47,856 bases of DNA, from positions 1-47,856 of the forward strand of contig JAGVBZ010000022.1 of the NCBI GenBank assembly GCA_020059465.1, in the 5' to 3' direction. Numbering within the stretch: position 1 is the first letter of the stretch; each line of letters opens with the position of its first letter. The notes beneath the pieces were generated by a model. It saw nothing but the letters and a program-made list of their open reading frames with translations. It did no database searches and was not told where the DNA came from. Source of the stretch: Brevinematales bacterium. GTDB lineage: Bacteria > Spirochaetota > Brevinematia > Brevinematales > GWF1-51-8. This document shows positions 25,535-28,802 of this stretch, piece by piece. The position numbers and the translations under genes are program-made.

Positions 25535-26113
25535 TTATTTGTATGTAACCTTTGCCCCTTTCGATTCGGAGAGAATATCTGTTGTTTCAAGGTAGAGATT
25601 GAAATACTTAATCTTGTCGATGCCGAAATTGAACTCAAGGTCCTGCAATACCCTCTGCTGAATTCGTTCGGAGAATCTTACGAAGTCGTTTTTTTCATCG
25701 GCGTCAATCCAAAGATTTATCCCTACCAGATTGTCTTTATAAACCTCTATCCGGGATTCGCAGTGATGAACCCCGCCCAATCCGGATACTGTATCCCGGA
25801 TAAACATTTCGACCGCACCGCGGCCGAGATAAATGTTTCCTTTTTCGCTGCGCACCCAGAGATATTCCGACGACAGCCGTGAGAAGACCCGGAACGCGAT
25901 GATTACAATCGGGATACATACCAATACTCCCGCCGAAATGCCGAGAAACGGGAATACGGGTATCCCTGTCTTTCCCGCGAATAACTCCTCCAGATTGGTG
26001 CCTGGATAATAACTCATGAATACCCGGTAGAGAAGTACGCCTATCACCACGGATATTCCGATGTAAAAGTAGAGAAATCCGACGCTAAACTTCTGCAGCA
26101 GCTTCTTTTTCAT
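25535..26113 (-). CDS. amaP: AmaP-like membrane anchor for Asp23
   Basis: The 192-residue product has two N-terminal membrane helices (about residues 11-33 and 55-78), followed by a soluble alpha-beta region resembling the Asp23 fold (EVYKDNLVGINLWIDADEKND, then a helix RFSERIQQRVLQDLEF). In Gram-positive bacteria AmaP anchors Asp23 to the membrane. Here it directly follows the Asp23-family gene and overlaps its end by 29 bases, which supports the same partnership. AGGA lies eight bases before the ATG. The call rests on architecture and neighbour; sequence identity cannot be measured by eye. Confidence 0.75.
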   Translation of the reverse strand: MKKKLLQKFSVGFLYFYIGISVVIGVLLYRVFMSYYPGTNLEELFAGKTGIPVFPFLGISAGVLVCIPIVIIAFRVFSRLSSEYLWVRSEKGNIYLGRGAVEMFIRDTVSGLGGVHHCESRIEVYKDNLVGINLWIDADEKNDFVRFSERIQQRVLQDLEFNFGIDKIKYFNLYLETTDILSESKGAKVTYK

Positions 26114-26417
26114 CGAAGATATCCTTTACATTCATTTCGAGCGATTTTACATTCACCTTCGTCATCTTGAGAAGGTAATCGCGGATCTCCTGCGAAACCT
26201 TCTCGACCGATTTGATTACATCCGTACCGAACCGCACATCCACATCCAGCACAATATCCACCGAGGACGAACCAGCATAGCTCATCCTGATCGGGGTGCT
26301 TTCGAAAAGAAAAAGCACCCGGTTTTCATGGAGACGTATATCCGGATTGTGCGAAACAGTATGCCGAACCAAGCTTTCCAATCCGTACTTTTCAACGTTT
26401 ATGCGGTTTCTCAACAA
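26085..26417 (-). CDS. Asp23/Gls24-family envelope stress protein
   Basis: This is a 110-residue Asp23-type protein, about the usual length of the short form, with the pattern SVDIVLDVDVRFGTDVIKSVEKVSQEIRDYL followed by VNVKSLEMNVKDI. Such proteins are small, abundant and cell-envelope-associated. In Bacillus the homologue yqhY follows accBC, as here. The start is a TTG at 26417, or the next TTG at 26414, which has the better spacing from AGGAG. It is 11 bases after accC and overlaps amaP. In Bacillus its loss disturbs fatty-acid synthesis, so a link to carboxylase control is a fair inference. Confidence 0.82.
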   Translation of the reverse strand: MLRNRINVEKYGLESLVRHTVSHNPDIRLHENRVLFLFESTPIRMSYAGSSSVDIVLDVDVRFGTDVIKSVEKVSQEIRDYLLKMTKVNVKSLEMNVKDIFDEKEAAAEV

Positions 26418-27771: not shown

Positions 27772-28215
27772 CTATATCTCGAAACGCATGATCGGCTGAC
27801 CGTACTCGATCGGCTGACCTTCTTCGATTAAGATTTCTTTCACTTTCCCTTCTACATCCGACACAACATCCTGCATGACTCCCAATACACGGACATGCGC
27901 AAGAATATCTCCCTTTTTCACAGTATCGCGGAGCTTGATATAGTATTCTCCGGTTTTTGTGTTTAGGCGGGTAAAGAAACCCACCCATTTTGAACGCAGT
28001 TCGCTTTCGTTATCATACGGTTCCGCCGCCTTCGCAGCACCGTCTGATGCGGGACCCGATGAAACCGCTGCCGGAGCCGGAGCGGCATGGATAGGCGCGG
28101 GCTTGCCGCCCATCACCATACGCACACGCCCTTCCGTGGTCTCAATCTCGATTTCACCGACATCGGAGTTTTTAAATATATCCTGAATATCCTTCATGTC
28201 CTTTACGTTAAACAT
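27772..28215 (-). CDS. accB: biotin-carrier-type protein (AccB homologue) lacking the biotinyl lysine
   Basis: The 147-residue protein has the AccB layout: an N-terminal helix and strand (IQDIFKNSDVGEIEIETTEG), an Ala/Pro-rich linker (about residues 43-62) and a C-terminal carrier domain. The domain keeps VKKGDILAHV, then GKVKEILIEEGQPIEYGQPI as in BCCP. The attachment hairpin should read EAMK(L/M)M, with biotin on the lysine. Here it reads RVLGVM, with glycine 112 (codon GGA at 27880-27882) at the lysine position. All three preceding motif residues also differ, so a single-base sequencing error cannot explain it. It cannot be biotinylated at the normal site. Plant BADC proteins, lysine-less BCCP relatives, regulate carboxylase. 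GGAGGTGG lies before the ATG. Confidence 0.85.
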   Translation of the reverse strand: MFNVKDMKDIQDIFKNSDVGEIEIETTEGRVRMVMGGKPAPIHAAPAPAAVSSGPASDGAAKAAEPYDNESELRSKWVGFFTRLNTKTGEYYIKLRDTVKKGDILAHVRVLGVMQDVVSDVEGKVKEILIEEGQPIEYGQPIMRFEI

Positions 28216-28241: not shown

Positions 28242-28802
28242 TTACTTAACACGCTCAATATAGCGGTCGTCACGGGTATCTACTTTGATTTTTTCACCTT
28301 TCTGGACAAAAAGCGGTACCAGCACAGTCGCGCCGGTCTCGAGAGTGGCGGGTTTAGTTCCGCCGGAGACCGTATCGCCTTTCAGACCGGGATCAGTCTC
28401 AGTGATCTCCAGTTCGACGAACATCGGAGCTTCGACCAGTATGACCTCACCGTCATAAATATGAAGCGTGCAGATCATCTCATCCTTCAGGTACTTCTGG
28501 TCTTCGCCTAATACTTCCGACGGAATATGGTGCTGGTCGAAAGATTCGTTATCCATAAATACAAAGCTATTGTCGCTTTCCTTGTAGAGAAGCTGTGCGC
28601 TTCTTTTCTCTACATACGCCTCCTCGAAAGAATCGCTCCCGCGGAATGTTTTTTCCATGACTGTACCGCGGATTATATTTTTCAGACGAGTACGCATCAC
28701 AGCACCGCCCTTTCCGGGCTTATGGTTCTGCGACCAAAGCACGAGGTACAGTTCCCCGTCCATTTTAATGACATTCCCTTTCCTGATATCCGTGTAAAAC
28801 AT
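28242..28802 (-). CDS. efp: translation elongation factor P
   Basis: EF-P rescues ribosomes stalled at polyproline sequences. The 186-residue protein is standard length and has three beta-barrel domains. The tip loop of domain I is KPGKGGA, with a lysine at the position that is modified in many bacteria. The C-terminal signature GDTVSGGTKPATLETGA is followed by VPLFV...KIKVDTR. GGAGG lies six bases before the ATG. It sits between pepP and accB, a position also seen in Bacillus. No modification enzyme is present in this window. Confidence 0.95.
   Translation of the reverse strand: MFYTDIRKGNVIKMDGELYLVLWSQNHKPGKGGAVMRTRLKNIIRGTVMEKTFRGSDSFEEAYVEKRSAQLLYKESDNSFVFMDNESFDQHHIPSEVLGEDQKYLKDEMICTLHIYDGEVILVEAPMFVELEITETDPGLKGDTVSGGTKPATLETGATVLVPLFVQKGEKIKVDTRDDRYIERVK

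Follow-up and report, generated by a model that had tools for sequence, protein, structure and literature searches.

In many spirochaetes, the accB gene that adjoins accC probably encodes a structural or regulatory part of acetyl-CoA carboxylase (ACC), the enzyme that supplies fatty-acid synthesis with its committed precursor. We call its product, a lysine-less AccB-like protein, AccB*. With a probability of roughly 0.6, AccB* is a non-biotinylated ACC subunit that would bind AccC and build a mixed AccC/AccB*/AccB assembly. The case was met in a stretch of 47,856 nucleotides from a Brevinematales bacterium (GenBank assembly GCA_020059465.1, contig JAGVBZ010000022.1), which is here called the window. 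The features of the locus are compiled in the table.

Features of the accB* locus, with positions in the window and the basis of each assignment
Feature	Position	Strand	Basis
accB*, lysine-less AccB (BCCP) paralogue, 147 aa	27772..28215	-	ORF, Pfam, NCBIfam, AlphaFold2, orthologue alignment
N-terminal module of AccB*, residues 1-34 (helix 4-16, strands 21-26 and 29-34)	28114..28215	-	AlphaFold2 secondary structure
Residues 82-97 of AccB* (TRLNTKTGEYYIKLRD), where the canonical thumb would be	27925..27972	-	alignments
Residues 109-114 of AccB*, RVLGVM replacing EAMK(M/L)M	27874..27891	-	sequence and alignment
Residues 136-141 of AccB*, IEYGQP, C-terminal V/I-E-[Y/F] motif	27793..27810	-	alignment of 117 carriers
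efp, elongation factor P gene, preceding accB* in the run of genes	28242..28802	-	ORF, Pfam
accC, biotin carboxylase, 444 aa, sole AccC of the genome	26428..27762	-	NCBIfam match, genome search
Asp23-like protein, downstream of accC	26085..26417	-	marginal Pfam Asp23 match
192-aa protein, two hydrophobic segments near the N-terminus	25535..26113	-	ORF, Pfam, neighbourhoods

The open reading frame of accB* starts with ATG, stops with TAG and is free of frameshifts. Its product matches the Pfam family Biotin_lipoyl (PF00364) at 1.4e-10, and the NCBIfam BCCP model TIGR00531 recognises it at 1e-19, with 71.5 bits, which is under the curated equivalog cut-off of 115.2. In the AlphaFold2 model the carrier domain is confident (pLDDT about 89-94 for residues 71-147), the linker (37-67) is of low confidence, and the N-terminus consists of a helix and two strands. 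The best match of this model in the PDB, as seen by Foldseek, is the biotinyl domain of E. coli (1BDO; TM-score 0.90 on the target, rmsd 1.3 Å), and the BCCP chain of the E. coli BC-BCCP complex (4HR7) ranks third among the solved matches. According to the model, the carrier fold is kept on both sides of the hairpin. The hairpin itself reads AHVRVLGVMQDV. Gly112 (codon GGA, 27880-27882) occupies the column of the biotinyl-lysine, and the turn contains no lysine at all, which also rules out another modification at this site. A second element of the ordinary carrier, the thumb, is equally missing: its proline is absent, and R83, K87, K94, L95 and R96 are conserved in its place. The basic ones among them, R83, K87, K94 and R96, are absent from ordinary AccB.

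A first, sequence-only reading had assigned the gene order efp-accB-accC-asp23 and the replacement of EAMK(L/M)M by RVLGVM. It was right in both respects, apart from the fact that the Asp23-like protein only just reaches the Pfam cut-off (28.0 bits, cut-off 28). The accC gene of the window is intact (709 bits, NCBIfam cut-off 626.5). Its product reads PRHIEIRFIAD where all other AccC rows covering the stretch have EIQ, EVQ, EFQ or ELQ, a single Q-to-R difference. Behind accC, the Asp23-like gene and the gene of the 192-residue protein are coinherited in the window's order. The latter protein is possibly an AmaP-like membrane anchor, and the pair may be of the Asp23/AmaP type.

The loss of the lysine is not a peculiarity of one genome. 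A search of 100 relatives, followed by a survey of 393 Spirochaetota genomes that contributed three more, yielded a total of 30 AccB* orthologues, found not only in the window's genus, order and class but also in numerous further families of spirochaetes. They belong to 17 family codes, with identities of 22-80%, and every one is lysine-free, with G in 23, H in three, N in three and Q in one of them. In most families the gene still immediately precedes accC, frequently with efp ahead of it. The other three members of the genus have RVLGIM, RVLGIM and RVLGVL at the hairpin. A base-calling error is therefore excluded. A resequenced copy with EAMKM, which had been named as the finding that would overturn the reading, has thus effectively been looked for in these congeners, and it did not turn up; the homologues in the operon position, whose alignment had been recommended, are without lysine phylum-wide. 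The loss is old, and the lysine-less protein has been conserved for as long as the families of the phylum have been apart. Outside the spirochaetes, no lysine-less carrier was seen among the 79 loci listed by a contig scan that was seeded on the C-terminal motif and cut at 80 loci, so that such carriers may well exist there.

Nor is accB* decaying. Within the genus, its pN/pS ranges from 0.10 to 0.24 for the whole gene and from 0.05 to 0.15 for the last 75 residues; the corresponding values for the lysine-bearing copy are 0.11-0.18 and 0.03-0.18. Purifying selection on accB* is strong and resembles that on the lysine copy. That AccB* could be a sequencing error, an assembly error or a decaying pseudogene can practically be dismissed: the state recurs in independent genomes, the congeners and all 30 diverse orthologues alike, the frame is intact and pN/pS stays well below 1.

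A lysine-bearing partner is at hand. The window's genome (3.19 Mb, 96.6% complete) contains three matches to the biotin/lipoyl domain: AccB*, the glycine cleavage H protein (GcvH) and a canonical carrier of 170 residues with EAMKVM (G000:C22:112475-112942). An aspartate aminotransferase-like gene immediately precedes the gene of this carrier, which passes TIGR00531 with 129.5 bits (cut-off 115.2). The suspicion that the real carrier is elsewhere was thus borne out by the genome search for a second accB. The complete ACC set comprises a single AccC, AccA, AccD, a BirA-type ligase and the one lysine-bearing carrier. One biotin carboxylase is thus served by one biotinylatable carrier, and AccB* is an extra component. 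A second AccC dedicated to the lysine-bearing carrier was looked for in the genome and not found. The possibility that this carrier serves another carboxylase could also be rejected, since AccA and AccD are the only carboxyltransferase-family matches and the two carriers plus GcvH the only biotin/lipoyl-domain ones.

The partner is common in other AccB* genomes. It is present in sequence in 26 of the 30, in one of them only as a fragment at a contig edge; the remaining four genomes (G008, G030, G040, G058) are drafts that reach 80-86% completeness. The gene ahead of the partner encodes an aminotransferase in 14 cases. In unrelated families, the lysine-bearing accB is often immediately preceded by an aspartate aminotransferase-like gene (L172, L173, L180, L183, L185, L186, L188, L189, L190, L191, L197, L198, L207, L233). 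Spirochaetes with a single accB contributed 46 carriers; their genes nearly always adjoin accC and all of them encode the lysine. Nearly all of the AccB* genomes searched have just one AccC. A second, partial match occurs in G040; G041 and G051 show no AccC match at the strict threshold, and in G041 an AccC fragment adjoins AccB*.

Two families of the window's class deviate from this pattern. In f4, a sister family within the window's order, AccC and AccB* are both absent, which is consistent with a joint loss. The f4 genomes lacking both (G006, G009, G011, G012) are small and may no longer make fatty acids through ACC. In f5, AccB* is found away from accC, which is kept elsewhere, and beside a sensor kinase with PAS, HisKA and HATPase domains. 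The genomes concerned, G013-G017 (L165, L167, L169, L170, L171), have AccB* followed by a gene for a membrane-bound histidine kinase-like protein of this type, and a TerC-family gene comes next after the kinase in most of the loci. A signalling link of AccB* in f5 is possible. The f5 kinase and, in the window, the Asp23-like neighbour are no more than hints of regulation.

The elements of an ordinary carrier are distributed between the two copies. Three sites were scored on one alignment of 117 carriers. The lysine is present in none of 30 AccB*, in all 25 partners, in all 46 carriers of single-carrier spirochaetes and in all 16 from other phyla. The aromatic residue of the C-terminal V-E-[Y/F] motif, a column that was picked after viewing the alignments, behaves the other way round in the two copies: it is found in 30/30 AccB* and 0/25 partners, again with 46/46 in single-carrier spirochaetes and 16/16 in other phyla, the last count being biased because the underlying scan was seeded partly on this very motif. 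All 62 single-carrier proteins, 46 from spirochaetes and 16 from other phyla, thus keep lysine and aromatic together. The thumb goes with the lysine. Its tyrosine and its proline are each present in 25 of 25 partners, while in AccB* the tyrosine column holds Y in 5/30 and the proline column K in 23/30, with no proline among the residues listed. We read this as subfunctionalisation: in two-carrier genomes each copy appears to be without what the other one keeps.

Trees are in line with an old split. In a tree of 77 rows, a modestly supported branch (65/90) separates AccB* from the rest, and 21 of the 22 partners group together (100/98); the family groupings within the partners resemble those within AccB*. 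When the columns of hairpin, thumb and C-terminal motif were removed, a quick tree needed two changes; yet on the same trimmed alignment, holding AccB* as one clade gave a better likelihood and was not rejected (p-AU 0.83). A single old origin of AccB* is likely from these comparisons.

We infer the following order of events. Early in the history of the phylum, the ancestral accB of an efp-accB-accC operon would have been present as two copies, the lysine-bearing one being either a duplicate of the operon copy or an acquisition from outside. The one now outside the operon, often directly behind an aminotransferase gene, would have continued as the biotinylated carrier and retained lysine hairpin and thumb. 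The one beside accC, AccB*, would have lost both but retained fold, N-terminal module and V-E-[Y/F] motif. AccB* would then bind AccC, so that a mixed AccC/AccB*/AccB assembly could form, in which it may position the real carrier and set the number of biotins per complex. An effect of AccB* on the rate or the regulation of ACC is possible.

A possible basis for such binding comes from E. coli. In models of the E. coli proteins, the N-terminal domain of AccB attaches to AccC only, and thumb and lysine hairpin contact BirA, with AccA and AccC as further contacts of the thumb (PMC10863985). Residues 1-34 of AccB* are the counterpart of the region modelled as the exclusive AccC binder (PMC10863985). 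AccB* is thus devoid of the elements for biotinylation, retains those that AccC could use and is encoded beside accC, which together suggest an AccC-binding, non-biotinylated subunit. Since the thumb is reported to contact AccC as well (PMC10863985), its loss, however, cuts both ways. The loss of lysine, its conservation, the co-occurrence with AccC and carrier, the purifying selection and the division of motifs are observed facts on the side of the subunit. On the other side stands f5, where the place of AccB* away from accC and beside a sensor kinase is not what a pure scaffold role predicts. In a read-through model of an AccB*-AccC fusion, which suffers from an artificial tether and a shallow alignment, no sign of docking was seen, and the pLDDT of the AccB* N-terminus was 62-66 as compared to 73-77 for the protein alone, a result that is neutral as to binding.

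A more specific version of the subunit model is that the tasks of one AccB are shared by two homologous subunits, one with lysine and thumb and the other with V-E-[Y/F] beside AccC, and that ACC needs both. We hold this split carrier tentatively, at slightly less than even odds. The same facts could, of course, be read differently. AccB* might be a competitive brake that displaces biotinylated AccB from AccC; ACC activity would fall, and fatty-acid synthesis would be tuned by the amount of AccB* or by a signal. An AccB fold with an N-terminal module but no lysine would suit a competitor, linkage to accC would fix the ratio of brake to enzyme, a sensor kinase adjoins AccB* in f5, and an inhibitor model exists for plant BADC (PMC11926652). 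We nevertheless consider the brake unlikely: neither copy has the full set of features that an ordinary AccB shows, so that mutual dependence is a better fit than pure competition, and for plants the authors of PMC11926652 argue for a role as glue. The N-terminal module, the operon link with accC and the motif split speak at least as strongly for a structural or anchoring subunit as for a pure regulator.

Still less probable, in our view, is that AccB* has left ACC for another job, e.g., as a signalling adaptor working with the Asp23-like and membrane proteins or with the f5 kinase. Its linkage to the genes of these proteins in the window's order, the kinase linkage in f5 and the four conserved basic residues foreign to ordinary AccB would be explained that way. 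However, in nearly every other family accB* adjoins accC; it is found together with accC and is missing from the accC-less f4 genomes. The AccC-binding subunit remains our preferred reading.

Related phenomena are known. The BADC proteins of the plastid heteromeric ACC resemble AccB* in being BCCP-like without a biotinylation motif and in occurring beside a biotinylated BCCP and a separate biotin carboxylase; in the window's genome the biotinylated state of the partner is deduced from its EAMK motif. BADC has been described as unique to the plant enzyme; inhibition was proposed first, a glue role is now argued, and assembly versus inhibition is still debated for subunits of this type (PMC11926652). 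Unlike plant BADC, AccB* is bacterial, old in Spirochaetota and encoded next to accC, and its partner has reciprocally lost the C-terminal motif. We assume that AccB* originated separately from BADC1-3. The comparison with BADC drawn in the sequence-only reading is apt as an analogy, a lysine-less BCCP-like protein beside a lysine-bearing BCCP.

With the E. coli type of AccB, AccB* shares the N-terminal helix-strand-strand, a Pro/Ala-rich linker, the C-terminal biotinyl-type domain (1BDO, 4HR7) and the place before accC; it differs by the loss of lysine and thumb, a TIGR00531 score under the cut-off and a separate lysine-bearing AccB in the genome. Bacillota have a similar gene order, efp-accB-accC-yqhY(asp23), with an Asp23-family gene after accC, for which the window offers a marginal match; their accB is, as far as is known, canonical, that of the window lysine-less. 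In B. subtilis, YqhY reportedly takes part in lipid biosynthesis (PMC5437119). Non-catalytic "glue" subunits of bacterial acyl-CoA carboxylases are reported to put the holoenzyme together and to activate catalysis (PMC11926652). AccB* may be likened to them as a non-catalytic subunit. To our knowledge, these subunits are not BCCP paralogues, nor do we know of a description of reciprocal motif loss between carrier copies. A bacterial lysine-less AccB was not found described in the open-access literature.

For annotation, the consequence is a warning: in AccB* genomes, the accB beside accC is not the biotinylated carrier. A bacterial case that extends over 17 family-level groups of one phylum, with a clean reciprocal loss of motifs, offers a simple system for roles of carriers besides carrying biotin. 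The motif split predicts a function for V-E-[Y/F], which is kept by every single-carrier AccB examined. If the split carrier is true, spirochaetes would have a separately arisen counterpart of BADC and, with it, a natural dissection of the parts of BCCP.
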